From NCBI RefSeq assembly GCF_035083965.1, contig NC_089723.1, positions 4,177,501 to 4,241,500 on the forward strand: 64,000 nucleotides of DNA, given 5' to 3'. The notes beneath the pieces are model-generated. The model worked only from the letters and a program-made list of their open reading frames with translations. It did no database searches and had not been told where the DNA came from. This document shows positions 3,001-54,164 of this stretch, in pieces. The position numbers and the translations under genes are program-made. Source of the DNA: Branchiostoma lanceolatum (lineage: Eukaryota > Chordata > Leptocardii > Amphioxiformes > Branchiostomatidae). Positions within the stretch are counted from its first letter, which is position 1. Every line of letters begins with the position of its first letter.

Positions 3001-6000
3001 GCCGCTGCACGGTATTTTCCATTACAATGAACAGAAAAATTCGAATGCCGGGTTTGGAATCTATGAAGTCCTGTTCATAAGACAAAGGCCTTGTATACAG
3101 TGTTTCCGCCAGAGGGGCGTCTTCCCGTCAAATGACGGCCTTATGTCGCTTTGGACGGCCTGAACTCAGACATAGGCCGTCCTCTTTAAAAAAAAGACAA
3201 ACTAAATGCCGAGAAATCGGGGAAAAAAATACGAGAGGTCGGCATAATTTCTTTGTTTTTCTTTGTTACTGCGGGCGTGGGGACGCTCTATATCGTTGGA
3301 CATTCACACTCTTTTGTTTGTTGCTATTGTTAAGCTTGCGAAGAATCGATGTCGGTGCCTTTGGCATACGGTGATCTCATTAAAAACCCGTTTTTCAAGA
3401 CTCAATCGAAGAAAGTCATCGAAGCAAACAAGAAAAACGTAAACAAAACAAGAATTTCGCCCGTGCATTTCAGCCTCTACGTCGTAATTTGCCGCGATTC
3501 GCCGTCATTTCTGACCGTATTCGACACAATATATATTCCTTTGAGTGTTTTTCCGTGAAAATTCTCCATATGTACCGTAGATAAATCATAATTTTCGCTA
3601 TGAGTTCACATAAGTCGAGCCGCAACCTGCCCCGTCCTGTTACGCGCCGATTTGAGGCACAAGACATGGTCACGTAAAAACTCAATAGATCTCGCACGAA
3701 AGGCCAAATCATGCATATAAATGTGTCCCTGTAATGTCAAGAAGCTGTCTAAGCTCCTGCGATACACTTGGAGATCCAAATATAATTTTCGAACGAGATT
3801 TGCACACTCAAAGTTGGCCCCAAATGAGCCTTCTTGTGTTAAATTCTGTCGTAGATTTCGCACTGCGTGGGGGTTTCCGTGCTACCGTTTCAGCATTACC
3901 AGGCGTAATTTACTTCCGGGTCGTAGCAGAAGGGCTTGCGGCCGAACACGGAAGTGTGGTCAATCTTCACGTTCTATCCAAAGATATGTTAGAATACTTT
4001 TCTTATTTTAGAATTTGTCATGCAGTGCAAATAAACAAATGTAACCGGCTCCTTACTGGGCGCCCAGTACGGAACAGACGACACCTACCGGGCATACGTC
4101 ACCAAAAGTGTCTGTGCTCGCTGCGGTAAGCTTGTACGTATATGCTCAGAAGCAGTTGAGACATAGGGGGCTGAGTTCCGGGAAAAGTTGGAGAAGCCCA
4201 AAGAAGACGGTGGCTTCGGCACTCTGGAGGCAACCTTCATGAAAGCAGACCCAATTCTAAAATGAAAGAATTTTCCGTTTGACGTCCGTGCCTATATGGG
4301 TGTACACACGCCCTTGAGAAAGCAAGGTTGAAATTGGGTCTATGGAATGACCCAATTCTAAAATGAAACTTTTCCGTCCTACTTCCGTGCCTATATGGGT
4401 GTACACACGCCCTTAAAAAAGTAAGGTTGAAATTGGGTCTATGGAATGACCCAATTCTAAAATGAAAACTTTCACGTTTGACGCCCGTGCCTATATGGGT
4501 GTACACACGACCTTGAGAAGCCAAGGTTGACATTGGGTCAATGGAATGACCCAATTCTAAAAGGAAAACTTTCCGTCCTTCCTCCGTGCCTACATTGTTT
4601 TACACACGACCTTGAGAAAGCAAGATTGAAATTGGGTCAATGGAATGACCCAATTCTAAAATCAAAACTTTTCCGTCCTACGTCCGTGCCTATATGAGTG
4701 TACGCACGCCCTTGAGAAGGCAAGGTTGACATTGGGTCAATGGAATGACCCAATTCAAAAAAAGGAAAACTTTTCCGTTTGAGTCTGTGACTATATGGGT
4801 GTACACATGCCCTCGAGAGGGCAAGGTTGAAATTGGGTCAATGGAATGACCCAATTCTAAAATGAAAACATTCCGTTTGACGTCCGTACCTATATGGGTG
4901 TACACACTACATTGAGAAGCCAAAGTTGAAATTAGGGCCATGGAATGAACCAATTCAAAAATCAAAGATTTTTATGTCCTACGCCGTGCTTATGTTGGTG
5001 TACACACGCCCTTGAGAAGCCAAGTTTGAATTGGGTCAATGGAATGACCCAATTCTAAAATGAAGTACTTCTCCATTTGACGTCCGTGCCTATATGGGTG
5101 TACACACGCCCTTGAAAAAGCAAGGTTGAAATTGGGTCTATGGAATGACCCAATTCTAAAATGAAAACTTTTACGTTTGACGCCCGTGCCTATATGGGTG
5201 TACACACGACCTTGAGAAGCCAAGGTTGACATTGGGTCAATGGAATGACCCAATTCTAAAATGAAAACTTTTCCATTTGACGCCCGTGCCTATATGGGTG
5301 TACACACGCCCTTGAGAATGCAAGGTTGAAATTGGGTCAATGGAATGACCCAATTCTAAAATCAAAACTTTTCCGTCCTACGTCCGTGCCTATATGAGTG
5401 TACGCAGGCCCTTGAGAAGGCAAGGTTTACATTGGGTCAATGGAATGACCCAATTCTAAAATGAAAACATTCCGTTTGACGTCCGTACCTATATGGGTGT
5501 ACACACTACATTGAGAAGCCAAAGTTGAAATTAGAGCCATGGAATGAACCAATTCAAAAATCAAAGATTTTTATGTCCTACGCCGTGCTTATGTTGGTGT
5601 ACACACGCCCTTGAGAAGCCAAGTTTGAATTGGGTCAATGGAATGACCCAATTCTAAAATGAAGTACTTCTCCATTTGACGTCCGTGTCTATATGGGTGT
5701 ACACACGCTCTTGACAAGCCAAGGTTGAAATTGGGTCAATGGAATGACCCAATTCTCAAATAAAAACTTTTCCGATTGACGTCCGTGCCTATATGAGTGT
5801 ACACACGGCCTTGAGAAGACAAGGTTGAAATTGGGTCAATGGAATGACCCAATTCTATAATAAAAAGTTTTCCGTTCGACGTCTGTGCCTATATGGGTGT
5901 ACACACGCCCTTGACAAAGCAAGGTTGAAAATCGGGTCAATGGAATGACCCAATATTCTATAATGAAAACTTTTGCCGTTCGACGTCCGTGACTATATGA

Positions 6001-9000
6001 GTGTACACACGCCCTTAAAAAGGCAAGGTTGAAATTGGGTCAATGGAATGACCCAAAATTCTATAATGAAAACTTTTCCTTCCTACGTCCGTGCCTATGT
6101 TGGTGTACACACGCCCTTGAGAGAGCCAGGTTGAAATTGGGTCAATGGAATGACCCAATTCTATAACAAAGACTTTTCTGTCCTAAGCCGTGCCTATGTT
6201 GGTGTACACACGCCCTTGAGAAGCCAAGGTTGACATTGGGTCAATGGAATGACCCATTCTACAATCAAAAACTTTTCTGTCCTACGCCGTGCCTACGTTG
6301 GCGTACACACGCCCTTGAGAAGGCAAGGTTGAAATTGGGTCAATGGAATGACCCAATTCTAAAATGAAAACTTTTCCGTCCTACATCCGTGCCTGTAGGG
6401 GTATGAACACGCCCTTTAGAATGCACGGTTGAAATTGGACCAGTGTATATAAACAATCCCTGTAGAGTGCAAAGTTGAAACCGCTTCAAAGGATCGCAAC
6501 AGTTCGGACATAAAAGAATTGTCCGTCCTAAGTGGGTGTATAACCAACGAGACATATGATAAAAAAAGTCAATCTTCCCCCATGACCTCTGTTTGGAAAG
6601 TAGGTTATATGGGTATAAATTACACAAAAGCCACTAAGAGTGCAAAAAACATTCCGTCCTTATAGTGTACGACCGTAAGTTCCTAACAATGAAAACTCAC
6701 AGAATGGAAAAGAACTTACAAACTTTTCCAAACAAGAGTTTCCCGTCTTAAGTTAGCGGATAGAACCCGCTTAATACTGCAATTCTAAACGTTCTTAAGG
6801 AACGCTCTTAGCTATGATTTTCAGGGTATAAGAGCTGAAAACAGTGTAAACTAGAAAGTGTGTTAGGACATTATATACAATGCCCTCGTTCTATTGACGC
6901 AATTTAACCTTGCCATCTTAAACCCCCGTCACAAATCAAGAATTAAGCTCGGCCGACATGCTCGGCGAGCTCCAAATGGGTATTTTCGGCCAAAGGACGG
7001 TCGACGTTCTGTCGATTACGCGGCCTTCGGTCGATTTTTAGAAATCAAATTGATCCAAATATGCTCCGGCGATTTTGAACTTCGGCGAGCTTTCGGAGAT
7101 CTACGAATTCGGCCGACGCTCGCATGAATATTGACGCCGGCTTAAGGGCGTGTGTACACCAATATAGGCACAAGCGTCAAAGTAAAAGTTTTCATTTAGA
7201 ATTGGGTCATTCTATTGACCCAATTTCAACCACGCCTTCTCAAGCGGGTGTGTACACCCATATAGGCACGGACGTCAAACGGAAAAGTTTTCATTTTAGA
7301 ATTGGGTCATTCCATTGACCCAATTTCAACCTTGGCTTCTCAGGGCCGTGTGTACTCCCATATAGGCACGGACGTCAAACGGAAAAGTTTTCATTTTAGA
7401 ATTGGGTCATTCCATTGACCCAATTTCAACCTTGGCTTCTCAGGGCCGTGTGTACACCCATATAGGCACGGACGTCAAACGGAAAAGGTATCATTTTAGA
7501 ATTGGGTCATTTCATTGACCTAATTTAAACCTTGGCTTCTCAAGGGCATGTGTACACCCATATAGGTACGGGCGTCAAACGGAAAAGTTTTCAATTTAGA
7601 ATTGGGTCATTCCATTGACCCAATGCCAACCTCGCCTTCTCAAGGGCGTGTGTAACGTTACACCCATGTAGGCACGGACGTTGGACGGAAAGTGTTCCTT
7701 TTAGAATTGGGTCATTTCATTGACCCGATTTTCAACCTTGCTTTGTCAAGGGCGTGTGTACACCCATATAAGCATGAGCGTCAAACGTAAAAGTTTTCAT
7801 TTTAGAATTGGGTCATTCCATTGACCCAATTTCAACCTTGCTTTCTCAATGTCGTGTGTACAACAATGTAGACACGGACGTAGGACGGAAAGTTTTCCTT
7901 TTAGAATTGGGTCATTCCATTGACCCAATATCAACCTCGCCTTCTCAAGGGCGTGTGTACACCCATATAGGCACGGACGTAGGACGGAAATTTTTCCTTT
8001 TAGAATTGGGTCATTTCATTGACCTAATTTTCAACCTTGCTTTGTCAAGGGCGTGTGTACACTCATATAGGTACGGACGTCGAACAGAATAGTTTTCCTT
8101 TTAGAATTGGGTCATTCCATTGACCCAATGTCAACCTTGGCTTCTCAAGGTCGTTTGTACACCCATATAGGCACGGACGTCAAACGGACAAGTTTTCATT
8201 TTAGAATTGGGTCATTCCATTGACCCAATGTCAGCCTCGCCTTCTCAAGGGCGTGTGTAACGTTACACCAATGTAGGCACGGACGTAGGACGAAAAAAGT
8301 TTTCCTTTTAGAATTGGGTCATTCCATTGACCCAATGTCAACGTTGGCTTCTCAAGGTCGTGTGTACACCCATTTAGGCACGGACGTAGGACGGAAAGTT
8401 TTCATTTTAGAATTGGGTCATTCCATCGACCCAATTTTAACCTTGCTTTCTCAAGGTCGTGTGTACAACAATGTAGGCACGGACGTAGGGCGGAAAGTTT
8501 TCTTTTTAGAATTTCCATTGACCCAATTTCAACCTTGCTTTCTCAAGGTCGTGTGTACAACAATGTAGGCACGGAGGTAGGACGGAATGTTTTCATTTTA
8601 GAATTGGGTCATTCCATTGACCCAATTTTCAACCTTGCTTTCTCAAGTTCGTGTGTAAAACAATGTAGGCACGGAGGAAGAACGGAAAGTTTTCCTTTTA
8701 GAATTGGGTCATTCCATTGACCCAATTTCAACCTTGCTTTCTCAAGGGCGTGTGTACACCCATATAGGCACGGACGTAGGACGGAAAAGTTTTCATTTTA
8801 GAATTGGGTCATTCCATTGACCCAATGTCAACCTCGTCTTCTCAAGGTCGTGTGTAACGTTACACCTATGTAGGCACGGACGTAGGACGGAAAGTTTTCC
8901 TTTTAGAATTGGGTCATTCCATTGACCCAATTTTAAACCTTGCTTTGTCAAGGGCGTGTATTACCCATATAGGCACGGACGTCAAACAGAATAGTTTTCA

Positions 9001-11692
9001 TTTTAGAATTGGGTCATTCCATTGACCCAATTGCAACCTTGCTTTCTCAAGGGCGTGTGTACACCCATATAGGCACGGACGTAGGGCGGAAAAGTTTCAT
9101 TTTAGAATTGGGTCATTTCATTGACCCAATTTTCAACCTTCATTCTCAAGGGCGTGTGTACACCCATATAGGCACGAGCGTCAAACGTAAAGTTTTCATT
9201 TTAGAATTGGGTCATTCCATCGACCCAATTTCAATCTTGCTTTCTCAAGGTCGTGTGTACAACAATGTAGGCACGGGCGTAGGACGGAAAGTTTTCCTTT
9301 TAGAATTGGGTCATTCCATTGACCCAATTTCAACCTTGCCTTCTAAAGGGCGTGTGTACACCCATATAGGTACAGACGTGAAACGGAAAAGTATTTTAAG
9401 TATGTTATAGAACACTTACGAAGTTTTGCTAAAGAACAGTATCAAACCTGTCTTAAGTTGGCGGGTATAACCCGTTTGATAATGCAATCTTAACGTTGTC
9501 AACGGAACGGTTTTACGTTATAATTCGGAGGGTATAAAAGCCAAAAGTTTTAACAGTATAACTAGAAAGTGTGCCAGAACATTAGATATACAATGCCATC
9601 GTTACTTTAAAACGAGTACTGGGCCGCCTCCTTGCGCGCTTCCCGCCCGAACACAGTCAACTGTCATCAGAATCAACACGAAACATTTCTTTTGCTTTGT
9701 CTTGCCAGTATTCTGCGTCACGCTGAGTGTGACCCGGAAACAGTGGAGTGTCGCCCTCAAACCACATGCCGCGAAACCTCCATATGGTGCGTTCTTGGTC
9801 CGGGGTGTAATACTTTAACCATAGGGAAAACCTTGGAAAATGGGTCATCTTTAACTCGAGAAATCTTGCTTCTTGGAGAAGTTTAGATACCCCGCTTTAT
9901 TGCAGGGGCTTGAGGAACGTCTTGACATTACGAGGACACATTTATATGCATGATTTGGCCTTTTGTTCGAGGACTATTGAGTTTTTACGTGACCATGTCT
10001 TGTGCCTCAAATCGGCGCGTAACAGTCCCGGGCCGTCCGCCATGTTTTTAAGCTCATTGATATGCAAGGTTTTAAGCGCTGATTGGTCCGCGTCATAAAA
10101 TCCTGTGCTCTGATTGGTTGACGGCAAGATGTCACGTGACCACAGGGCGGGAAAACCCCTTTACACTTCAGACGCTTCTGGTCACTAGTATACTTTATAT
10201 AGATCGCATTTTGTGACGATTGAAGCAGTATTAAAGCGACCTTCGTAACAAATTGATTTTGAAAAATTAACAAAGTCTTTTCTGATCACAACATTCAGTT
10301 ACTTTTCCTGGTCAATTAATTTTCGCGGTACGGTCAATTAATTTTCGCGGTACGGCCCTCCCCAAGTGGACGGCCTCTCAGTCGCGGTCTGGCGGAAACA
10401 CTGCTTGTATCTATTAAATGAATATTTAAAAATAACAAATATAAAATATTTCTTTATTTATTAATGAAAAAAAATGATATTCATAAATATGATATTGATA
10501 GATTAATATAATATCAATATATATTTTTGATATTCAATATCTAAAAAGAAAAAAAAATCCATGCACGGAGACGAACCCGGATCTTCTGGGTCCAAAGCGC
10601 TTCGCGTTGCCAGATCGGCCAAGCTGCGGTACGTAACCTTCCCACTGGACGTAATGCTATAACCTTACTATATGGTATCATTTATGCCGATTTTTGGTCG
10701 TTTTCTTGACGAAATCATTTTTTTTCTTCTGCAATCTTGTGGAATAGATGTAATATGGTCATTTTTCAGGATATCAAAGTCCGAAACCACAATGCAATGA
10801 TATTTCCGAACAGTTGTAGCAGTTACATGCGGTCGCCGTCCTGTGTCACATGCAAATCTGCGCCGTCCTGTGTCACATGCAAATCTGCGACACAGTGTTG
10901 AACCAAGCTTCCCTGGTTCATTCCTTGAAGCTTGAAGGTAAAAGCCAGGACAATACGTTCCGGCGCGCATGCGCCGAAACGTAAAAATAGTTACTCAAGA
11001 ACCTAGATAAAATTTTGAAACTAATTCTTACTGCAAACGTGTACTTGTTATTATTCTCCAAGCAGGGGCTTCGATCGAGAGGGGTAGTTTTGTTCGGGAT
11101 TTCTAAGAGGAGAGGAACGTTAGAAATTCCGGACAAAACTACCCCTCTCGATCGAAGCCTCTGCTTGGAGAATACTTGTCATGACGCCTCTACGGCTACA
11201 ACCACTGAGGCCATGGGTCATGAGTGAGTGAGTGATTCTTGACTTTGCTCACCATTCTTTCCAGGTTTGGGAATAGGCCTCTCTTCCTGCAGAATAAAAG
11301 TAGTACACATTAAAGCCAATCATCAAAAGGTTAGACTTTGCACTTTGTCACTTGACGTGAACTTTGCTCAACTCAGTGTAAAAGAACAACAACTCTGCTT
11401 TACAGATCTAACATTTTCAAAGGATTCCGACTATCAGCAGCAATTGTGGATATTGTCACAGACAAGGTTGAGATTTAAAAAATGACAATTTGCTATTGTT
11501 GGCGTATCTACTCGAGTGTTATGTAAGTCATAGAGCATATATATGCACAACAAGCGAACTCGTTTTGCCCCGCCCCTTTATAAAATGCTGCTTCGTTTTG
11601 TACATCGTTTATTGTACTCTAAGATCATTCAAACTCACCAGTTTTAGGTTGCCTTTCTCCAGAAGAACAGCGGAAATATTCGGCTCGCTCAT
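1..11692 (-). CDS. SORD: Sorbitol dehydrogenase copy A (5' part; runs off the left edge)
   Basis: This is a zinc-dependent, NAD-linked polyol dehydrogenase of the medium-chain (MDR) family, expected to oxidise sorbitol to fructose in the cytosol. Coding exons, in transcription order, are 11639-11692, 11253-11286, 1290-1454, 638-797 and 1-34; exon 5 is cut by the window edge, so the catalytic Glu and the Rossmann fold lie outside. Visible are the start [18 protein letters not shown], the catalytic Cys motif [11 protein letters not shown] (Cys41), LGHESSG (His66, Glu67) and the structural-zinc cysteines in [15 protein letters not shown]. The pocket Tyr of human SORD is Phe here and the Thr of CATPP is kept. 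Exon lengths and phases (54, 34, 165, 160) equal those of the two downstream copies. Intron 2 is about 9.8 kb and holds a large hAT-like element. The start is the Met that gives an 18-codon first exon, as in the paralogs. Confidence 0.88.
317..615. repeat. Intronic tandem duplication (~140 bp x2)
   Basis: Two adjacent imperfect copies in intron 4 of SORD copy A share segments such as AGAGATTATTGAAGATGA followed by CCTAAGCAAGGA-like text. Each contains a GTAAAACAAACAA tract. No function is apparent. Confidence 0.6.
900..1090 (-). mobile_element. Degraded SINE tail
   Basis: The text around TGTTGGGTTCTTTTACGTGC and the following ACACGGGTCCACC resembles the 3' part of the SINE at 44825-45127 (GTGGGTTCTTTAACGTGC, ACACGGGACCTCC). 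It lies in intron 3 of SORD copy A. Confidence 0.45.
1775..2206 (+). mobile_element. Truncated LINE 3' end
   Basis: The segment begins with a readable remnant of the C-terminal LINE finger ([17 protein letters not shown], ending in a stop). It closes with a 3' UTR ending TGCAATAAAGACTATTATT. A second copy of the same 3' end lies at 22640-22895. Confidence 0.65.
2230..3089. other. Intronic stretch with nothing recognised
   Basis: AT-rich intron 2 sequence of SORD copy A between a LINE end and the hAT-like element. Short overlapping ORFs on both strands carry no recognisable motif. Confidence 0.5.
4050..4256 (+). pseudogene. Decayed coding remnant, left arm of hAT-like element
   Basis: One frame reads protein-like text ([19 protein letters not shown], then VCARCG, later [16 protein letters not shown]) interrupted by one TAG, and stops in the first satellite unit. 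The Cys-x2-Cys suggests a metal site. The family was not recognised. Confidence 0.35.
4248..6445. repeat. Left satellite array, about 22 units of ~99 bp
   Basis: Units start near 4248, 4349, 4448, 4548 and so on to 6350, at 98-105 bp spacing. Each contains the arms AATTGGGTCA and TGACCCAATT separated by six bases, and GTGTACACACG. Internal larger duplications are visible (4848-5146 resembles 5447-5745). Because 99 is divisible by three, short repetitive ORFs arise on the minus strand; they are not considered genes. Confidence 0.93.
6700..6890 (+). promoter_or_regulatory. TATA-like flank S1 beside the satellite array
   Basis: Contains CAGGGTATAAGAGC and ACTAGAAAGTGTG followed by TATACAATGCC. 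The whole block is imperfectly repeated in the same orientation at 9415-9605, where the box reads GAGGGTATAAAAGCC. It could be a promoter remnant of the transposon; no transcript evidence is available. Confidence 0.35.
6890..9400. repeat. Right satellite array, inverted relative to the left one, 22-23 units
   Basis: The same ~99-bp unit in opposite orientation, spacing 91-109 bp. The first unit is split by a TTAA-flanked MITE (6922-7141). Some units carry a local GTAACGTTACAC variant (7651, 8257, 8853). Repetitive plus-strand ORFs here are frame by-products. Confidence 0.93.
6922..7141. mobile_element. 220-bp MITE with TTAA target duplication, inserted in a satellite unit
   Basis: Flanked by TTAA at 6918-6921 and 7142-7145. 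The interior is rich in GGCCGAC/GTCGGCC-type blocks, with ends related to GCCGGCGTCA. A longer relative lies at 51093-51443. TTAA duplication is typical of piggyBac-type elements; the superfamily is inferred. Confidence 0.72.
9415..9605 (+). promoter_or_regulatory. TATA-like flank S2 beside the satellite array
   Basis: Same block as S1 with a better TATA element (GGGTATAAAAG at about 9530) and the shared AACTAGAAAGTGTG and ATATACAATGCCATCG. The two copies bracket the right array. Confidence 0.35.
9657..9915 (-). pseudogene. Decayed coding remnant, right arm of hAT-like element
   Basis: A minus-strand frame reads protein-like text with residues [17 protein letters not shown] and [19 protein letters not shown], ending in an acidic tail and stop at 9657. 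It looks like the C-terminus of a transposon protein, family unknown, with no visible start. Confidence 0.35.
10560..10627 (-). repeat. tRNA-like or SINE head fragment
   Basis: The reverse complement contains a B-box-like GGGTTCGTCTCC and a plausible upstream A-box region. The rest of a cloverleaf is not convincing, so a tRNA-derived repeat is more likely than a working tRNA. Confidence 0.35.
11053..11173. mobile_element. Foldback MITE, CTCCAAGCAG family, copy 1
   Basis: A near-perfect palindrome: the left arm CTCCAAGCAGGGGCTTCGAT pairs with the right arm ATCGAAGCCTCTGCTTGGAG, both continuing inward through the GAGAGGGGTAGTTTTGT region. It lies in intron 1 of SORD copy A. Confidence 0.85.
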
Positions 11693-34340: not shown

Positions 34341-34570
34341 TTTCCAACGTTCACACAGCAGGGCGCTTCGACGGTTTTCTCTGGACGTCTTAGCGATTTG
34401 GCCTGAACTTGGAAGGTCTTAATCAAATCAAGACGTGAGGAAGACCTTGTCTGGCAGGGCATCAAGGAGTATGACCCCCTCACGCGTCTGTAGATAGGTA
34501 GTCGGGGGAGTGTCTCAGAGGATTTAGAACACAAGAGAGAGGAGACGGTACCGTCTCTGAAAACCCGAAA

Positions 34571-34835
34571 ATGGTCGTCATAACGTTTGCGATCCTCTCG
34601 TGCCTTTTGACAAACTGTCTCTGCACTGTGGGCTACGAGTTCGCGTGGAGACATGGGGAAGGACCGCCAGACTATCCGGCCTACGCCAGTAGAGCTAACG
34701 CGGTCGACCGGAGCCTGAAGCCCCGCTGCTACGGACGGTTCTTGTGTAAGAACGGGCGGTGTGTGGAGGGAGCTGTGGTCTGTAATGGCGTGTCCGACTG
34801 TGGGGACGGGTCCGATGAGAGAGGATGCGGAAGAC
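34571..34835 (+). CDS. Gene D exon 1: signal peptide and LDLa module 1
   Basis: The exon encodes a hydrophobic leader ([16 protein letters not shown]), a linker and one LDL-receptor class A repeat with six cysteines, containing [16 protein letters not shown]. The donor GTATGT follows a phase-1 codon break. The next in-frame stop lies just downstream in the intron. Confidence 0.82.
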
Positions 34836-37800
34836 GTATGTATCTTTAATCATCATTCATCAGAATAAAAGGCTAAAGATTTATCTATTTGCTACCACGC
34901 CAGGTATAAGATATACAGGAGGTAGAACTTTTACCTGGCGTTATTATGATAGAAATTTTCCCCGATATTTCAGTTTCGAATATAAAGCTTAGGATTTCTC
35001 CATCCACCACACCTCATTCATATGAATGAGTACTTTGACCTAACGTTTTATGGTATCCATTTCTTTTTCAAATATGTCACCGTTTCTCAAGAAGTTTACA
35101 AATAGATCTAAATATTGTTTACCTGGGTGTCGAACTTTAATGAACGTTTGCAAATAGATGTTGGATATTTTCTGATAATGGGCCGGTAGACCACCATTCA
35201 TCCCACTGATCTCAGATACTTTCATTTTCCGATGATGTCATATACATGTGTAGTTGTATGACATGTCCAAAGCCATGGTCTGTGCAAGAATGGCTCTACT
35301 AATACTTTTGACTACTAATGTGAATTGTACTCTGCTGAAAATTTCGTCGATTCCCTCTGCAAGGAATAAGAAAGCCAAATGGCGGTATATCTTTTAGATA
35401 GCCAGCTCAACTGTGCCAAAGGTGGGGGAGGGGGTCAAGAAAAAGTGGTGTTGATGCATCAACGGCAGGGCGTCTGTTACAGGTCAATGGATGGTGTAAA
35501 ATGAAAAAGGTGGACAGCGGAGGGATGTTGCTATGTTGAAGAGCCTTATGGCCCCGTCACACTTGGGCGTATATTCAAGTGCGCATGAGTTCCGCAGTAA
35601 CATTTTTTTGGTTCAAGTAAATTTCAGTCTGGTTATCAAACCAAATACATTACTTCTTCGGCTGCAAACTTAACCTACACCTAAAGCATGTTAATACGCA
35701 ACTCATGCGGGCTTGTATATACGCACAAGTGTGTCAGGGTGACACTTTAGCTCAATGGCAAACTTCCAAAAGACGGACAGTGACACAGAAGTGTGCTGGT
35801 TCACGGCTTTGCCTTATCAACATTGCAGATCATGAGTGGCTAAGAAGTGATAACATACCTGGGTCTAGTCCCTAGATAGGCATGTCAAACCTCCGCGTTT
35901 CCGCATTAGAACGCGGCGGCGCGCGAGGCAGTAAATGTTTTTACAAAAATCTTAAAAATCATCCGTATGCATTATGCCACTGAAAATCGTTGTCAAGAAT
36001 CAATGGATGATTTGCTATCATGCTATCATGTTTTTAATTGAAAATATCAATCGAACAAGGAGCTAAAAATCATTTAAGTTGGAGATGCAGGCGAAAAACC
36101 GCCCCGTTTTGACGCCGCGAACGCGGCACGCGATTTTGAGGCCCGCCCGGCGGAAGTCCCATTTTCAACTCAAAAGCCACAAGCCGGTGTAGCACGCAGA
36201 ACTCTGGGAATGGTTTCAGGTGAAAGGGCAGAGATCAAGGTTTACGCCAGTGGTGGGACAAAGTGTGTACGTCAATCTCGAGTTACTTTGGAGGGGTCCA
36301 GCTACGCTTCAGAACCACTGACTTCACAACACAGTGGCAGAGTCTAGAGAAGGGTATAGTGACAGGATGCACAATCTCCCCTATTCTGTTCATAATGGGA
36401 ATGAACCTTTTGATAGAGGCAGCCGCAAGCAAAGCTAAGGGACCTCGGATGATGTCAGGAGCTAGGCAAAACCCACTTAGGGGATTTATGGACGACCTCA
36501 CAGTAACTACCGTATCCCACATAGAGGCCAGATGGATGCTAGCAGAGCTCGACCTGATGGCAACGTGGGCGAGGATGAAGTTTAAACCGAAGAAATCCAG
36601 GTGTATGGTCATCAAGAAAGGGAAGATAACCAGCAGATTCAAGCTCGAAGTCCAAGGAGAGCCCATCCCATCAATCGAAGGAAATCCGATCAAGTGTCTA
36701 GGAAAGTGGTACGATGATACCCTGTCTGACAGGACGAACGTCAGCAGCACCATGAAGCAGATAGAAGAATGGCTGAGAAGAATAGAGAAGTCAGGCCTTC
36801 CCGGGAAATTCAAGGCCTGGCTTTACCAGCACGGTATGTTACCTAGGTTGATGTGGCTACTCACTGTATACGAAGTCCCAATGACAAGAGTAGAAGAGAT
36901 GGAAAGGAAAGTTAACAAGCACCTCAGAAAATGGCTGGGCGTTCCACCAAGTTTTACTTCACTGGGTCTGTATTCTAAATCAAGCCAGATGCAGCTCCCG
37001 CTTGCCTCAGTGACAGAAGAATACAAGGTGGCAAAATGCAGAACTGTCATGATGTACAGAGATTCGCAAGACCAGCAGGTTAGGCAGGCAGGCGTCACTA
37101 CAAGGGCAGGCCGGAAATTCGTGGCAGACTCCCTAGTTTCAAAGGCGGAAGGAATGTTGATCCTGCGGGACATAGTTGGGATAACGAACACTGGAAGGCA
37201 AGGTCTGGGTTCGTCACACTTCCAACAGTGGGGAAAAGCAAGTAGGAAAGAAAGGCGAGCCTTAATTCAGACAGAAGTAAGACAACTCGAGGAGGAAGGG
37301 CGGAGAGCCAAAGCAGCACAGTTAGCAGCACAGGGGGCTTGGACCAAGTGGAACCTCCCCAGTAGGAAAATAACTTGGTCGGATCTGTGGAAGCTGGAGC
37401 CGTTCCGTATTTCTTTCCTGTTGAGATCAGTTTATGATACATTACCTTCCCCAACCAACCTGTGCAGGTGGGGACTGAGGGAAGACCCAGCATGCAAGCT
37501 CTGTGGCAAGAGAGGCACAATGGCCCACATCCTGTCTGGGTGCAGTACAGCGCTCACACAGGGGAGATACCGGTGGCGACACGACAAGGTGCTGACCACG
37601 ATAGCAAGTATCCTAGAAGTTGAGAGGAAAAAGAAGCGCCACTTAGAGTCGAGAAGAGGCCCAGCAATCGCATTTGTAAGGGAGGGGGAAAAGAGTCGCC
37701 CTGCAAAAGCAAGAGCGAGCAACAACATCCTGCAGAAGGCGAAGTCATGGGACCTGATAGTGGACCTGGGAAGGAGGCTACATTTCCCCCCAGTAGTCCA

Positions 37801-40800
37801 GACAAAGCTGCGGCCAGACGCGGTGTTATGGTCAGAAGAAGGGAAGAAAATCGTCCTCATAGAGCTAACAGTCCCATGGGAGGAGAGATGTGAGGAAGCA
37901 TACGAGAGGAAGAAGAATAAATACCAAGACCTGCTCCAGGAGTGTAGGGACAAAGGATGGCAGTCTTGGCTGTTCCCAATAGAAATTGGGTGCAGAGGAT
38001 TTCCAGCACAGTCAGTATGGAAGATGATGACAGCACTAGGGATAGCAGGGAAGGACAGGAAGGTAGCTATACGCAGGATGGGGGAGGCTGCAGAGAGAGC
38101 CTCATGCTGGCTGTGGAATAGGAGAGAGGAGGTATGCTGGAAGCCAGGAGGAGCGGATGGGCAGTGAGTTGGCCACCACTGCCGGGCCCGACAGCAAGAG
38201 GGTGTTACGGATAAGGGCTGAAACACCCAATGAGGGCTGATCCGTCTGACGACATCCGACTTCCTTCAAGCGACAGCACTCCACTTACCTTAGGTGAGTG
38301 GAGTTCAACAAGCATCCAAGATGTATTAACCAAATCGTCGGGAGTTATGGGCGAAATAGCAGAAACCTCCGGGCGTAAGTGGATATTTTCGCTATTTTTC
38401 TTAAACTTAGCAATTTTGTCCCTATACTGTCACAAATATAGATATATTGTGGTCATCATGGTGTGGTTTTTGTTACTATTTAGGCGAGTTTGGCTTGTGG
38501 GTTTAGCGATACATTTTGAGAGTTTTTTTCGACAGCCCGAAATGTGACGTGCGCTGTGTGCGCATACGTGACGGGGGAGGGGGGCGTGAGATCGCGCACT
38601 TTGTATATGCTCGAAATTGAACTTATTATCATCAATCCTGCGCTAATTAACCGTAGAATGGTCATATATTTTATGCTGAATGTAATATACCTTTCATATC
38701 CGATGATATGGCATACTTTGGACGCAACAAACAATTTTCCACTGTCGTAATTATGTTGTGTATATACACTAGCGTTACGATCATACAGTCCGAATTTGTC
38801 ACACAGTTGTATGATCTTCATTCAGATCGGTCCTTTTTTGATTTTCCAGTGGATACAAAGGTGGCATATCTGGTACAGCTGTGCAGAGAACGTGGGCTGC
38901 CTTCAAGCAAACTTGAACAAGTTGAAGATTACACAAACATCAGATCAAGTGTGTGGTGACGAAAATTCAATTTCCTAATTCAAATTTTCAAGGGGAGAAG
39001 CTACTTCAGGAGAAAAACTTGAACACTAAATTAATTACTGATACTGTACTAGTCAGAAAGTAAGTTGTAAGTCTGCTGTACTGTAGGTAACTTATTATAT
39101 GTAGCAATCAGAGATCTTATTAGAATGGGTAACATAGGTATTGATACTTATAATAGCACCATACTATTATCATTCTGATTGACCATGATGTTAATTAGCA
39201 TATTTAACTAATTAAGCATTGTAATATTAATTAATAAAGTATAGACATCGTTAGGAACCTATTTCAGCAAGCTTACAACATCAGTGAGTTCATGTAGCAG
39301 CCAATATCAGTGTCCATCATTAACAATGTATGCCTTTTACTATATATGGCTCATTAGTTTATTGCCAATTAACACCTTCATATAGATCTATTATTGTTCC
39401 TGTTGTAAAAATTCCTGTACTTAAGTCAACATGTAATGTAGGTTAACAGTTGAAAGTTGTTTTAGGGAATAGGTAGTACAAATAAGGATAAGTAAAACAA
39501 CTGGTTGTACATGTGTATTTGAGGATCAGTTCAGTTCATCCTGTTGAGGAAAATTACCCTCATTTGCATATCTTGCAATTAGCCAAGACTGCAAAAATAC
39601 ATTATTCTCATAATGATCTGTTCAACAACAAGATAGTCAGAACATCTAGTGCCTTCTTCAGTTTTCAGCATGTTTAGAAATGTATGTTAATTGATTGGCA
39701 CTATTGTGGATGAATAAATTAGTTAGGGTTAATTAGAGCTAATTAAGATAAGATACTGAATATAGGTCAAAAATAAAACATGACAGTCTGTCCAGTTATA
39801 TTATCTTTAAATGCTGAAAATCTTAACAATATTGGTCAAAGTGTTTGAGACTTACATTAAAAAGTATGTAAATAACTGTGGACTTGTGGTCATTTCTGGT
39901 GCCATGTTGAGGTAAATCATTCCCATAGGGCCAATAGATAAGTGTCTTCTAATGAAAACGTCCAACTTTTCAACTTTGAAAAATTCTGAAAAATTTCAAC
40001 ATTGTCCGATTTTGACAGGATAAAATGCATATTAAGCGGAAGAATCTGATCTGTACTTTGGTAACAATTTCAGCAAGTTCTTTCCTACCAAAAAATATGG
40101 TGTGACATACCTACCCTAGATCTAGACATAAAAGAGGTTTTTCTAGAAATGCTAATTTCTTTCCAGTCCATTATTTATATCACAAAGTATCTCTACCTTA
40201 AATATAATTCAGGACAACACGATACATTGTAAGATTAGGAATCTTAGGACACAAATGTCGATGACTGAGATACCGTGACACTTTTTGCAAACTTCATATT
40301 TTTTAGTGGAGGACACTTGCGCTCTTTGAACACTTTTAAAAATCTATGTAATTCTGTTATACATATTCAGACAGACAGTTGCGTATGCATTAGATTTGTG
40401 GGAGAAGAGATTAGACTGACTGCATGCCGAGTTGTTTTGTGACTGTTTTTAGTAAGGCCGTTTGGCCGTCTCGAATCTTCCACGCATCACAAGTATGTAA
40501 CCTTTACCACTTGGCTCACGGAGACAGTAAAGTAAGAACAAACCGAGCCAGCTGTCTGCAGGCTTGAAAATTAGTCTCTTACAGGAAGAACCCCGTAAAG
40601 CCCCCCTCTCATTGGACCCGCGGCACGCTGGCGGCGTCACAGCGTCCTAAACTGGATTTGTGTTACCCTTGACTTTATGATGGGAATATTATTCAAAACG
40701 TACAAGTATGACCAAAAAGACAACAAAACACAGAAAGCATAAAAAGATTCGTTTTTTTGGGAATGAAATTCGTTGAGTGCTTTGTCAGTTCGATTGGTCG

Positions 40801-43800
40801 CAGCGACGCCGCCAGCGTGCCGCGGGTCCAGTGAGACTAGACGGCGATCGCACTGCGCTTTCGCTGCGCTTTCGCTGCGACTTAAATTGGATTTGTCTAA
40901 TCCTTGATTTCATCATTGAAATATCATGCAAAATGTAAAAGTATTGCTGAAAAAACAACAATTCACACATAGTGTTAAAAGACACGTTCTTTTATCTATG
41001 AAATTCGTTGAACGCTCTGTTAAATTTGAGGTAGCAGAGATCGTGCGGCGAGAGCGCCGTCCTAGTAGAATGGTAGCCTCCACCAGGCCCTCCTACGGGC
41101 GTATGGATCGCAGAATTCGGCAAAAAAGGAATAATTAGCCAGTAGAGTCAGTCCACGGTGAAGATCACTTTTCGCCTACGTACGGAGCCTTCCAATGAAA
41201 CCCTGGCAAATATTCTCCCTATAGCCGGCGTAGTTAGTCTGGTAGAGACTAGTGTAATAGGGGTATAACAAGATGGCCGCCAAACTGATGCAACAATTCC
41301 CAGGGGGAATATTGGTTCATGGTTACCTTGTTAAGGACTGCCGTGCCTGTTCGGTTTGATATATCTGTTGTCTACATTGGCGCTTGATAGATAATTGGCA
41401 CAAAAACAGCCGAAGGTCAAAACTGTGACCTCTGGAGGACGGACGGTTCACCGAAGGACGGAAAGAAGGTCAAACAAGTTAGAGTTGCCGTGCGAAGCTG
41501 TCGTTGGCCTGGAGTCGCATTAGCGGTTCCGAAAACCTTTCGCCTGACCTCCAACTGCGACTGCAACGCAAGAGACTACTATAACGTACATTTGAATTCT
41601 CCTAGCTTTTACCATTTGAATACTGTAAATGCATAAATGTTCGCAGTGGTTTTATGTTCGCGGTTTTGGCGGTGAACTTTCAGCGCGAACTTAAGAATCA
41701 ATTTGCCCACCTATGACTGTAGCACTACCATTGTTTCAAACGCGAACTTAAAACCACCGCGATCTTTCTACAAAATCAACCAACCCACTTATAATTCAAA
41801 ACGTTGATCACTTCATTTTCCACTGGCTTCTTTTAAAAAAAGGAAGTCAAACCCAACCATAGTCAACCATATCTAACATAGAACTTATACTAGATAACTA
41901 GTCCGTTTTTCATGTATCTCCATGTACTTGTTGGTCTGCAATTAGCCTTTTGGCATGAACTTGCAATAAAGTTATTATTGTTATGAATAGTGCATAAATC
42001 CCCTGTCACACTTGAGCATATATACAAGTCCGCATGAGTTGCGATTTTGGTTTAGGTTAAGTTTGCAGCCGAATAAGGGATTTCTTAGATTCGATCACTT
42101 GGCTGCACAACGGTGGGTCAAAGTAGTAAACAACTTTTCCCCCGCAAACCGTACTTGAACCAACGAAATGTAAGTGCGCAACCCACGCGCACTTGAATAT
42201 ACGCACAGGTGTGACTGGGCCCTAACGTTACGTTACTTGATTGAATGGACAACTAATAAATATTTGAAAATGTCCATAGCCTCCGATGAAGCCAATACTT
42301 TTGGTCTCCTCATCAGGTCGAACAGCCTTGATGCAAAGCTACCCCCTTGGCAGTTTTCGAAAAGTTTAATCTAACGTTACATCATGGTAAAATAATCTCG
42401 GGGTCAACTTGTCCAAAGACATTAATTATCCAAGATGTATTGATACGATATTTCGATCGTGTTATTTATAGTTGACAGAACTTCAGAAGGTCACAAGATG
42501 CAATTTTAACTCATCACATCGTCAAGTCTAATACGCTGACTTATGCCCTCAATTTTCGGCCGGTAACCCTGCCCCCTTGGACGGTAACCCTGACTCCACG
42601 TGGTCCGAATTCTTCACTTATCTAAATCAAAGGGTATTGACAGAGGTCAGGTCCAGTATGCAAACACTGCAGTCTGGGTGTGTGTATGCTTGTGTGTTTA
42701 TACAATAACTTTATTGCACAACAATTGTACAAGGCACAAAGTATGGCATTAACTGGTACATAGATAACATTCTATTAGGCTAATTAATCTATCTTGTAAA
42801 ATATGGTGTAGTAGTATGGTTGTCGCAGCTGAGTGTTGATTATATCTATATGGTATGACTTCGGGTTCAGCCATAAATGTCCAAAACCGTGGTAGCTGAG
42901 GATATTTTTCACGTGGACAATCCAATCATGTTCTCCTAAAAGAACAGTATTGTATGCTTCCCGAAGTATGGTATCTTCGGGTAAATGAACTAAGAGATGC
43001 CAGTATTTTACAAGTTGCATTTCTACGTCCATAATCTCCTTTGCAGGCCTCCCGGGTGGCGCCGGCATTCATTATTGGGGGGGGGGGGGGGGGGGGGGGG
43101 CTGATCCGCGATCTTCAACTTGTTGGGGCCAGTTTCTTTTTGGCTGTGGGACCGTATCTGCTTGCGGGACAGCATCTGCCGCATGTCCCATACCCCCAGC
43201 CAAAGAACCTGGCCCCTGATAAGTTGAAAATCGCGAATCAGCGCTACCCCCCAAAATAAACGCCGGTGCCACCCGGGAGGCCTGATAATGCTTGGGTCAC
43301 CTTTCCAATCCGGGGCCCGGCCGGGCAGTCTTTGGGAACGTTAAGTATGATATAAAATACCATTAAAAGCACAAAACGTGCCAAAATTATCGAAGAACAT
43401 AGCTTGTGCATATCTATTGATAGACATTTTGATTTTTCCTTTCCGCAAACAGCCCGACCGGGCCCCGGCTGGGAAATGTGACCCTAGCATAAGGAGGCTA
43501 GGGTCAAGGGCGACATTGTCGTCTTTGAATTACTACCTTTCCTACCAGTACGGTAGAGACCAAGTTCATCAGATTGGAAGCCCGACATTGTGTCAATGTG
43601 TCCAGCGTATATCTCACAGGATCAGCAGCTACAATGTACTTGACAGTTTGTTTATAACATAAGATGCGAGATTGTAACTAAAGAAGCCTGCATCTCAACT
43701 CGGATCATTTAGGAGATCAAGGCACATGCCTTCCTACCCCTTCTCCACTCATTAGGTTATCTTCTACTTAACTTTCCAACTTAACATGTACTCCGTTGGC

Positions 43801-46800
43801 CCACAGGATAACGTGGGCGTAAACCATCCGATTACAGATGACATTCAAACATACTTTATTTCTGTGCCAGGATTTGAAGATTTCCGCTGCGGTTCTAATA
43901 TATTCCGGGCAGGGAGTTGACTTCGTCAACATTTGTACTGGCGTTTGGCAACAGCTAGTGCAGAAGTCGGTTCAAGAGCTCTGCTCTTCCGAGGAGACGT
44001 TGTGACAAATCCTACCGAGATCCAATGCAACAAGCCGATATAGGGGACGGGGCCGAAACCTACTATACTTCTTTATCAAGCTTTCTTACTTCTTTCAGAA
44101 GCTATCTGTCATGAAAAATATCAAGACCATGCCAAGGACAAGGATCATGCCAAGGACAAATGATTTTTAAAAAAAACTGGAAGCTGCTGCAGTACCAAGG
44201 TCACACACAAGGGGCCCAATATCGATCTTGACCTTCGTCTTCGCAACACCTACGCACATACCACATATCATTACAATCCAATACCTTCGTTTTTCATGTG
44301 GGTAATGAGGCACAAAATATAAATCCTACACTGTCTGTAGGACTTAATTTTGAATAAGTAAAGTAATAGGACATATCGTATATTTAACACATTTGTCGTG
44401 TGAATGTACTGGGCCATCCACATTCGCCCATTTAGTCCTAATAAAGAACATATGCGATGACGATCAGCTGGCAAAACTGCCGCATGATATAACGCCTTCG
44501 CTTATTGTCACGCCTAGTGGATTACTTCCTAGTACTCAATGTGGAATGAGATATGAAACCCAGAGGTTCCGCTGCAGTACCATAGCCAGCCACTAGGCGG
44601 CTCAAAATCTAACCATTTCGAGTTCTCAACAAGACGTATTCACAAACCAAGTCTCAAGACAATCCATCAAGGTACTCTTAAGTTATCGTGTTGACAGAAG
44701 GAAGGACACACACACGAACGCTGACGAAAACATAACCTTCTCGGCGAAGGTAATTTATTTATTTATTGAGATTTACCACATGTGTGGAAGGATTGACATA
44801 ACAGGTGACTATCACTTTTTCAAGACGTCAACCCAGACCAGACTGTAAGGTTTGGACCATCCCACACCGGGACATGCCCTTATTCTTTTTCGAAAGGTGT
44901 GGTGGGTTCTTTAACGTGCGCGCGGTGTGGCTCTCCCCAAACACGGGACCTCCATTTAACGTCCTATCCGAGGGACGTCCCTAACCGAAGCTAGGTACTC
45001 ATTTACACTGAGTGAAGTGAGGAAATTTGTGTTAAGTGCCTTTCCCAAGGGAACAACGTGCGGGCGCATGTCCAACTCGGGTTCCCTTGTTTAACGGCCG
45101 AATGTTCTAGCCGTTACGCCACACGACGTAATTAAGATCGGACACTTCTACCCATCTAAAATCCATCAATAATCCCTTCCAGGCCCGTACGCCTCCGGCC
45201 CGGCACCACCAGGCGGGTTGAACAGCGTTCCTACCGCCAACTGCCAGCGGCAGTGTGACGTCACGGACCGTACCCCGGTGTGTGGATGGGACGGAAAACA
45301 AGTACGACAGTACGCCGGTACCTGTCCCATGGCCATAGCCTCGTGTATTCAGATGCAGCCCATCACGGCCACACCTTGTGGAGGTGAGTCATAGCCTCGT
45401 AGTAGGCTGCTATACAGTTCCGTCACCAAATAAAAGACTCTTTTTACACAACCAAGTGATTTATTCAACCCGCGTTTCCGCGGTGACCATCTGTCACCTT
45501 CCTCAATGCAATTTTGACTGGTTCACATTGCACTGCAGCACAGGTGTCGCTGCTTATAGATTCAGTGACTTACCAACCTGATGAAACTTTTCACAGAGCT
45601 CTGTCACCATCTTCTCTCCTATGGCTCTAAAAATCCTTTTTCTAAGGGTCAGTCATCTAATAAAGGACTTATCATTATATGTGGGTCTTTATATGGTATT
45701 TGAAAGACTTCATATGATGAAAACCACTGAGTACAGCAAATGCTTGTGCTGACTCATGCAATTCTCTGGCCTAATCGTTGCTAGTTTTTTTAGAATGATG
45801 GTCATTTTTCTTCATTGGTTGATCGTTGCATTATATTTCAAAGTCGTTAATGTATAGCTTTTGAAGTCCACAATAATCAGTGGCCGTGTGTAAGATGCCC
45901 TGTTCCTTCCACACTTCAGGGGCGACGGCGTCCTGTGCGACCGGCCAGTTCCCGTGCACCACCGGTGCGCAGTGCATCCCTCACCTCCAGCGGTGTGACG
46001 GCGTCAGGGACTGCAGAGACGGAACCGACGAGGTCGCCTGCCCGCAACGTCAGTCTTAAATTGTGTATTCAATTACTCTGTTACTCGAATTAAACCCCTG
46101 TCACGCTTGTGCGTATATACAAGTCCGCATGAGTTGCATATCAACATGTTTTTGGTTTAAGGTTAATCTCCAAGCAGATCTATAGGTTGCACAAAGACCG
46201 TATCAAACTGGCAGAGGAAGTACCTTTTGCAACCTCCTTCTTCCAGTTGGATACGGTCTTTGCAATACATTGGGTCTGGTTGGAGACTAGTTTAAGGTAA
46301 GTTTGCAGCCGAAGACGCAATTTCTTTGGTTCGATAACTAGGCTGCACAACGGTGGGTCAAAGTAGAAAACAACGTCTTCCCCGCAAACTTTACTTAATC
46401 AAAAGAAATGTTCATGCGCAACTCATACGCACTTGAATATACGCACAAGTGTGACAGGGTCCTAAGTTTGATTCTGTTTATCTTACGTTTGGTCAAGACA
46501 TTTGCTTAACTTTATCTAATCTTGTGTAGCTTTTTGGTTAAATATGTTGAACTTGAGTGCAGCTCCACTATGTGAATCGTGTAATAAGATTTAGACAAAA
46601 ATGAAAAAAAGTCTGTCTTAAAAATCATCCACACTTGCTTCAAAGACAGTACTCAAGAAGCATTATTTTTGCTGTCTTATTTGTTTTCCTATTGAACTAT
46701 CTAAAATTGCTTTTCTTTTATTTGCATATCAATTCATAGTTCGTGTTTAGAAACCTGCTGGTAGACAAATCTTGCTCAGACTAACTGATGAAAAGTAGTG

Positions 46801-48486: not shown

Positions 48487-48738
48487 GGGCACTGTCACAC
48501 TTGTGCGTATATTCAAGTGCGTATATTCAAGTGCGTATATTTAAGTGCGTATGAGTTGCGCATTATCATTTTTTGGGTTAAATAAAGTTTGCGGGGAAGA
48601 AGTTGTTTTCTTACTTTGACAGCCTGGTTATCGAACATAGGAAATCACTTATTCGGCTGCAAACTTAACCTAAAGCAAAAACATGTTAATACGCAACCCA
48701 TGCGGGCTTGTATATACGCACAAGTGTGACAGGGCCCT
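48487..48738. mobile_element. PIF/Harbinger-like MITE, copy 4 (first of a tandem pair)
   Basis: Starts GGGCACTGTCACACTTGTGC and ends CGCACAAGTGTGACAGGGCC. The 16-bp segment GCGTATATTCAAGTGC is repeated in tandem near the left end. Confidence 0.82.
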
Positions 48739-48975
48739 ACCACACTTGTGCGTATACTCAAGTGCGTATGAGTTGCGCATTAACATTTTTTGGGTTAAGT
48801 AAAGTTTGCGGGGAAGAAGTTGTTCTTTATTTACTTTGACCCACCGTTGGGCAGCCTGGTTATCGAACCGAAGAAATACATTTTTCGGCTACAAACTTAA
48901 CCTCAACCGAAAACATGTTAATACGCAACTCCTACGGACTTGTACGTGTACGTACGCACAAGTGTCAACGGGGCT
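48733..48975. mobile_element. PIF/Harbinger-like MITE, copy 5 (second of a tandem pair)
   Basis: Starts within the last bases of copy 4 (CCCTACCACACTTGTGCG) and ends CGCACAAGTGTCAACGGGG. The two may share a terminus. Confidence 0.78.
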
Positions 48976-51041: not shown

Positions 51042-51092
51042 GTTGAGAGACCGGTTTTGGTTCAAGTCCTGTTTGCTTTCAGCTTTACATAA

Positions 51093-51443
51093 AGCCGGTG
51101 TCACAAATAAGAAATTCAGCTCGGCCGACGTGTTGGCGAGTTTCAAGTGTGCATTTTCGGCCGAAGTACGGCCGACGTCCTGTCGATTACGCGGGCTTCG
51201 GGCGATTTTCAGAAATAAAAGTTGATCCAAATATTTGCTTTTTACCAGGTTAGTCGATACTGATTTCGTCCATGTCCAAGAGATGGTACCATCTCATGGG
51301 AGATTTTTAGTTTTTAGTGTTCGACGGACGTCGCCCGAGATTTTCATTGGAAGATACGGTCGACGCTCGGGCGATTTTGACATTCGGCGAGCTACGGGTG
51401 ATTTACAAGTTCGGCCGACGCTCGCATGAATTGTGACGCCGGC
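51093..51443. mobile_element. MITE related to the TTAA-flanked element, longer version
   Basis: Ends AGCCGGTGTCACAAAT and ATTGTGACGCCGGC, flanked by ATAA on the left and TTAA on the right. It shares CTCGGCCGAC and TGTCGATTACGCGG with the 6922 copy and has an extra ~100-bp insert near 51240. Confidence 0.72.
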
Positions 51444-51884
51444 TTAACCCTGACGGGGTCCACCGCAATGTGGCGCCTTAGGTCCTCTGCATCAGAGCAA
51501 ACTGACGTCTAAAGACGGCAATACTGAAAGGGTCGGTCGGAAATTCAAGTGGGGGCTGCATTTACAACCACGTAAAGATACCGCAACCAGCTGGCTGGAG
51601 AGGTCGTCATAGTTTAAGCAGCTTCTGACAGCTACAGTCTAGGCTCTGTGTTGTACATATATTGTACGGTCGGTATTGCATGTCATTCTCAACGACGAGA
51701 CACTATAGCTACTGATATACTAGATATAGCCGGAGGAGGGCTATGTGTTAACCGGTATAAGATCTTATACTGCCCTTCAGCGTAGGCTTTCGCCTTACCG
51801 TGAGAAGACAGAGCTATGCCTGTGCAAGCTTCCACAGTTCCATTCCGGGGATTCCTGAAACCGTTCAGGCTTTACAGATCCTTA

Positions 51885-52130
51885 AGCCCCCTCTCACTGG
51901 ACCCGCGGCACGCTGGCGGCGTCGCTGCGGCCGATCGAATTGACAAAGCACTCAACGAATTTTATCGACAAAAAAATAATCTTTAAGCTTTGTGCGTTTT
52001 GTTGTCTTTTTGGTCATACTTGCACGTTTTGAATGATATTCCCATCATAAAGTCAAGGGTAACACAAATCTTGTTTAGGACGCAGCGACGCCGCCAGCGT
52101 GCCGCGGATCCAGTGAGAGGGGGGGGGGGT
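51885..52130. mobile_element. Foldback MITE (ACCCGCGGCACGCTGGCGGC ends), copy 2
   Basis: Left CTCACTGGACCCGCGGCACG and right CGTGCCGCGGATCCAGTGAG; the interior shares ACTTTATGATGGGAATAT (as complement) with the 40599 copy. Confidence 0.82.
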
Positions 52131-54160: not shown

Positions 54161-54164
54161 GACC

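Follow-up and report, generated by a model that had tools for sequence, protein, structure and literature searches.

The described systems closest in layout to the locus reported here are foldback-type elements, of which Drosophila FB is the type. FB and the sea urchin TU elements have long inverted arms with tandem repeats, in which the repeat units are short and the arms are contiguous with the ends, unlike in the present element. The group of FB and TU is also named in the work on Tetris, a foldback transposon of Drosophila virilis with inverted arms containing ~220-bp tandem repeats and with target-site duplications (TSDs) of 8–10 bp (PMC4079207). Its terminal inverted repeats (TIRs) are long, up to 1,735 bp, with three or four repeats in the example given; the copy number of the array differs between alleles, and the authors suggested an affiliation with Mutator (PMC4079207). 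A Galileo copy of D. willistoni is 9,021 bp long with TIRs of 4,246 and 4,680 bp, both of which include ~140-bp direct repeats, and it contains fragments of other transposable elements (TEs); the TSDs of Galileo are 7 or 8 bp (PMC4168063). Within a Galileo copy, the TIRs contain unequal numbers of repeats (PMC3573991), and the repeats of GalileoG in D. buzzatii contain transposase-binding sites (PMC3688188). Tm1, a Mutator/Foldback element of root-knot nematodes, is built of a ~14-bp motif and has a 9-bp TSD (PMC3169594).

Since tandem repeats are already on record in the inverted arms of Tetris, Galileo, and Tm1, the layout of the present locus is of a known, foldback type, and the statement of the first-pass annotation that no described family has this layout was wrong. 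Among the matches listed for the amphioxus transposon, foldback, and satellite literature, no title referred to such an element, and the excerpted text of an amphioxus TE paper (PMC5802833) uses neither "hAT" nor "foldback". A literature text search for the TIR strings gave, among the matches listed, no eukaryotic-transposon title and no 13-letter string.

Results

Boundaries of the element

The window, that is, the whole 64,000-nucleotide stretch of Branchiostoma lanceolatum DNA analysed, contains one copy of the element, and neither a second insertion nor an empty site was seen there. The edges of the element lie at 3098 and 10403, where the following features were found:

3090–3097, no strand: left TSD, CTTGTATA, 7/8 identical to the right flank
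3098–3113, plus strand: left TIR, CAGTGTTTCCGCCAGA
10388–10403, minus strand: right TIR, reading TCTGGCGGAAACACTG on the window strand
10404–10411, no strand: right TSD, CTTGTATC

The two TIRs form an exact inverted match (16/16) that ends after 16 bp. With up to three mismatches allowed, the TIR motif was found in the window at these two sites only (0.45 expected), and at least two matches were also obtained in 7 of 100 shuffled controls. The flanking octamers differ by a single mismatch. A survey of inverted pairs (arms of at least 12 bp, spacing of 0.1–15 kb, arrays masked) detected 221 pairs in the window, only two of which had flank octamers agreeing at seven or more positions: the pair of the element and that at 11052–11174, an inverted-repeat unit of 123 bp, the arms of which measure 14 bp and the flanks of which match at 7/8 positions. 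None of 30 first-order Markov simulations contained a pair of at least 14 bp with such matching flanks. Pairs of at least 16 bp occurred at a mean of 0.13 per simulated window (n = 30) and the probability of octamer agreement at seven or more positions is 0.0004, so the chance of a TIR pair together with its flanks is 0.13 × 0.0004, that is, ~5e-5 per window. Because of these results, the ends and their matching flanks are regarded as being beyond chance.

The proposal of the first-pass annotation that a transposon-like unit of 7.3 kb with hAT-like ends is delimited here was supported; the TIRs match fully, and octamers do flank them where it had placed an 8-bp target duplication, the copies of which are, however, imperfect. 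The mismatch in the TSD, the end of the TIR match after 16 bp, and a BLAST E value of 0.05 when the TIR pair is taken by itself within the locus would also suit a TIR pair lying by coincidence around an inverted satellite duplication. The simulations and the per-window estimate speak against such a coincidence, as does, post hoc, a subterminal motif common to both ends, and it appears very improbable.

The subterminal regions include the following features:

3135–3180, plus strand: left subterminal repeats, three ACGGCC/GGCCGT copies (3135–3140, 3155–3160, and 3175–3180), candidate transposase-binding motif
10310–10355, plus strand: 22-bp direct repeat, 2.1 copies, near the right end
10352–10375, plus strand: right subterminal ACGGCC copies (10352–10357 and 10370–10375)

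ACGGCC/GGCCGT is present in five copies in the two 260-bp ends, three in the first and two in the last, where 0.15 would be expected from the rest of the window; AGGCCGTC (on either strand) occurs four times in the two ends and not at all outside the element. Since these motifs were picked post hoc by screening all 6- to 8-mers, the sharing of a subterminal motif by both ends is only a lead. Subterminal repeats have been described at the ends of hAT elements and matter for hAT transposases (PMC4763223).

Organization of the interior

Between the subterminal regions, the following segments were identified:

3629–3764, plus strand: left copy of the inverted segment S, 136 bp, 87.5% identity (core 3637–3742, 100/106)
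3992–4021, minus strand: isolated 30-bp unit-like stretch, opposite to the left array (weak)
4248–6438, plus strand: left array, ~22 units of ~100 bp, with an internal 6–7-unit segmental duplication
6439–6713, plus strand: stretch past the left array that may be its inner edge in decayed form, with a unit trace at ~6450–6542
6714–6890, plus strand: segment X1, direct repeat of X2, 75% identity
6891–6921, minus strand: inner end of the right array, severed by the nested insertion
6918–7145, no strand: nested MITE-like insertion, ~220 bp, bounded by TTAA on each side, with a sister at ~51090–51447
7142–9392, minus strand: right array, ~22.5 units of the left-array repeat, inverted
9414–9603, plus strand: segment X2, direct repeat of X1
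9898–10033, minus strand: right copy of segment S (blastn against the left copy)

The element is thus ordered as TIR, unique sequence, S, unique sequence, plus-oriented array, perhaps a decayed array edge, X1, minus-oriented array with the insertion, X2, unique sequence, inverted S, unique sequence, and TIR. TRF placed the left array at 4248–6438 (period 100, 21.9 copies) and the right one at 7144–9392 (period 100, 22.5 copies); the true start of the right array is at 6891, and the ~220-bp TTAA-flanked insertion splits it. Two opposed arrays of one repeat with near-equal unit numbers had been proposed from the first reading and are present; the unit length, given there as ~99 bp, needs slight revision, with a TRF period of 100 and a unit spacing of mostly 99–101 bp. 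The ~140-bp inverted segment said to be shared by the arms corresponds to S.

At the junction of consensus units, a perfect and stable 10-bp hairpin is formed, AATTGGGTCA-ATGGAA-TGACCCAATT (fold z −4.0), the arms of which are not significantly more conserved than sequence elsewhere (0.955 vs. 0.891, p 0.06). There was no support for transposase binding by the unit of the kind known from the Galileo repeats: the number of 8-mers that the unit consensus shares with the 260-bp ends (none with the left and one with the right) is at chance level. The exact 26-base core of the unit had no match in viral contigs, while an 18-base core matched two bacterial records in genome contigs, which is not above the chance expectation for an 18-mer in 257 Gb. 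A protein search with the array ORF 8973–9410 gave 1504 candidates, none at an E value of 1 or better.

No inverted similarity was detected by blastn between the TIRs and S (3114–3628 and 10034–10387) or between S and the arrays. The element is not a simple palindrome, and its arms are not one continuous inverted repeat. The unit trace in 6439–6713 had a score of 27, which none of 200 shuffles reached, and it is considered weak because this score equals the best of 116 control tiles; the stretch at 3992–4021 scored 29, where the 116 control tiles reached 27 at most, and is also weak. X1 and X2 (~180 bp) bracket the right array in direct orientation, while the left array is flanked by X on one side only. 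Such pieces could derive from a carrier if the arrays were passengers, that is, if satellite-carrying elements, for example of the Helentron type, had inserted twice in opposite orientations into a hAT-like element; satellite-like arrays on Helentrons have been reported in oyster (PMC7492417). However, the outer edges of the two arrays had no flank in common according to blastn, and the position of X on both sides of the right array in one orientation but on one side of the left array does not fit a double insertion of this kind, which we consider improbable.

The nested insertion belongs to a MITE-like family with TIRs near GCCGGCGTCACAA. The ends of both copies are TTAA except for one end of the second copy, which is ATAA, and the copy in the right array is without ~130 bp of the interior of the 51090–51447 copy. 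Other inverted-repeat sequences of the window are a ~200-bp element in two inverted copies (40613–40830 and 51903–52107), the inverted-repeat ends of which are rich in CCGCGGCACGCTGGCGGCGTC, and a group of related sequences at 46376–46460, 48492–48910, and 58778–59009 that have ATATACGCACAAGTGTGACAGGG in common. The CpG observed/expected ratio is 0.995 in the element (3098–10403) and 0.785 for the window.

Coding content

Pfam scans covered 22 of the 48 ORFs of at least 50 aa overlapping the element, taken from its sequence beyond the arrays or at their margins; the other 26 are mostly array frames. No transposase was found among the scanned ORFs and the few matches were all below the cut-offs, including a Myb_Cef match in ORF 3384–3584 (17.3 bits vs. 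a cut-off of 27), which was taken as chance.

Elsewhere in the window, ORF 36224–38167 encodes a non-LTR reverse transcriptase that is 100% identical over 90% to the B. lanceolatum protein P0002 and 94% over 97% to another, P0001. An LDLa ORF (34502–34849) is situated 1.4 kb upstream of it, and in P0002, a single predicted protein, zf-RVT and LDLa domains occur together. A query with part of an LDLa ORF found no homologue among proteins of similar length. Another long ORF at 54039–56093 contains proline-rich repeats and an LDLa-like end, LDLa having been recognized by eye.

Relationship between the units of the two arrays

Forty-one full units (20 left and 21 right) were compared; the left array was used without its first and last unit, and the right array without its incomplete units. 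Mean unit identity was 0.828 within the left array, 0.842 within the right array, and 0.829 between them (0.846, 0.869, and 0.853, respectively, without gaps). All 16 common polymorphic columns, in which the second state occurs in at least six units, had both states in both arrays, one of them being a gap column and another having the minor state in a single left unit. In the tree, unit L03 grouped with five right-array units (support 99/95) and, within the pair L03 and R07, support was 97/88.

A weak array signal was also detected. The within-minus-between similarity gave p 0.009, or 0.025 when five duplicated left units were omitted; array labels changed 10 times on the tree versus ~14 under shuffling, with values this low in 14 and 7 of 500 shuffles, and the nearest neighbour lay in the other array for 14 of the 41 units versus 21 when shuffled, with 4.9% of shuffles as low. 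A 6-bp insertion was restricted to R05, R11, and R17 among the full units. These observations argue against complete mixing of the arrays.

The unit order is not collinear, as the best diagonal was reached by 0.758 and the best anti-diagonal by 0.36 of 500 shuffles. A one-to-one mirrored order of the arrays, tried as a candidate, was unsupported by the anti-diagonal value, and with unmirrored unit orders the hairpin-mediated expansion suggested at first reading was not supported. The left array includes a duplication of 6–7 units (lag 6, p 0.003; lag 7, p 0.021), and a weaker lag-6 signal was seen in the right array (p 0.036), all values being unadjusted for the 13 lags. Similar unit numbers need not imply a recent mirror duplication. 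The simplest account would be that the arrays have a shared origin in both orientations and have since undergone turnover, mostly independently, with occasional exchange between the arms.

Discussion

Affiliation of the ends

Typical values for hAT elements are TIRs of 10–25 bp, a TSD of 8 bp, and a usual length of 2.5–5 kb, and a copy of BuT2 was reported with one mismatch in the TSD (PMC3942097). A CAGNG start was named for several fungal hAT-like elements, one other hAT starting otherwise, and a central TA was called typical of the hAT TSD (PMC3441728). The present element has a short TIR starting with CAGTG and an 8-bp TSD with one mismatch; CTTGTATA, coming from a single insertion, is without a central TA. 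Target patterns of hAT elements are nTnnnnAn for Ac and nnnTAnnn for Buster, and CTTGTATA fits neither of them. Judged by its ends, the element is a likely candidate for hAT and is not filed there as a member.

A similar architecture could be mobilized by a transposase of the P superfamily or of another family generating 8–9-bp duplications. Galileo, the closest well-studied layout, belongs to the P superfamily and has 7- or 8-bp TSDs, Tetris with its 8–10-bp TSDs was assigned tentatively to Mutator by its authors, and the present target site is without the hAT patterns. On the other hand, the CAGTG start, the 16-bp TIR, and the 8-bp duplication fit the descriptions of hAT, and a mobilizing family other than hAT seems rather unlikely. 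The odds of this alternative overlap with those of the explanation we prefer, which claims hAT-like ends and not a proven hAT transposase.

A putative history of the element

We consider that the locus probably represents a single old integration of a DNA transposon of the cut-and-paste type that is non-autonomous and combines hAT-like ends with an interior of the foldback type. Its movement would depend on a transposase encoded at another genomic site, which would recognize the 16-bp ends, perhaps together with the subterminal ACGGCC motifs, and would leave target duplications of 8 bp. Amplification of the ~100-bp unit may have taken place inside the element, and the unit may have come to be present in both orientations via inverted duplication or exchange between the arms. 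Each array could then have altered its size and order separately by unequal exchange, by which 6–7 units would have been duplicated on the left, and units may occasionally have been transferred between the opposed arrays. The mobilizing family, the transposition itself, its age, and the order of events are what we infer from the sequence of a single locus. Several observations stand against this explanation: the direct orientation of X1 and X2 is not explained by a plain inverted duplication, the TSD carries one mismatch and fits none of the hAT target patterns, the length of 7.3 kb exceeds that of usual hAT elements, a single copy was seen, the units cluster weakly by array, and the unit consensus shares 8-mers with the ends at chance level only.

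The proposal made at first reading that the element spreads a satellite is conjectural, one copy having been seen. A more speculative extension, to which we give little weight, would make the element a hAT-mobilized satellite carrier of a chordate. Continued exchange of units between its opposed arrays, by inversion or by conversion mediated by hairpins, would keep a single unit pool in either orientation despite drift in order and number, and the element would seed free satellite arrays. If other copies exist, hAT-like ends and a cephalochordate host would be added to the known satellite-carrying transposons, and a young family, if present, would allow direct measurement of repeat exchange between opposed arrays. 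As a single old copy, the element is mainly an annotation result. In a table of TE-to-satellite cases, Tetris is listed as a foldback case and no row names hAT, some rows being given without a superfamily (PMC9659126); this is one table and not proof that no hAT case is in print.

Comparison with known systems

Tandem repeats are found inside the inverted arms of the present element, as in foldback elements, while long inverted-repeat arms continuous with the ends are not. It is regarded as foldback-like and is not filed as a member of the group because blastn revealed no inverted similarity between TIR and S or between S and the arrays. Non-autonomous hAT elements are similar to it in the 16-bp TIR with a CAGTG start, the 8-bp TSD, and the repeated subterminal motif, but at 7.3 kb it is longer than the usual hAT element and consists mostly of satellite. 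It resembles Tetris, which is non-autonomous, has tandem repeats in inverted arms, and has no conserved ORF; it differs in the 16-bp TIR, ~22 units per array, interrupted arms, and direct X copies. Long repetitive inverted arms are common to Galileo and the present element; in Galileo, however, the arms are long TIRs and the transposase is known, while the unit described here shows no link to transposase-binding sites. With Tm1 it shares composite inverted ends with tandem motifs, and one Tm1 copy also contains a nested inverted-repeat element (PMC3169594), but the ~14-bp motif and 9-bp TSD of Tm1 contrast with the ~100-bp unit and 8-bp TSD found here. The present element differs from these systems in that hAT-like ends are paired with this layout, and also in how long its arrays are, in its interrupted arms, and in the direct orientation of its X copies.
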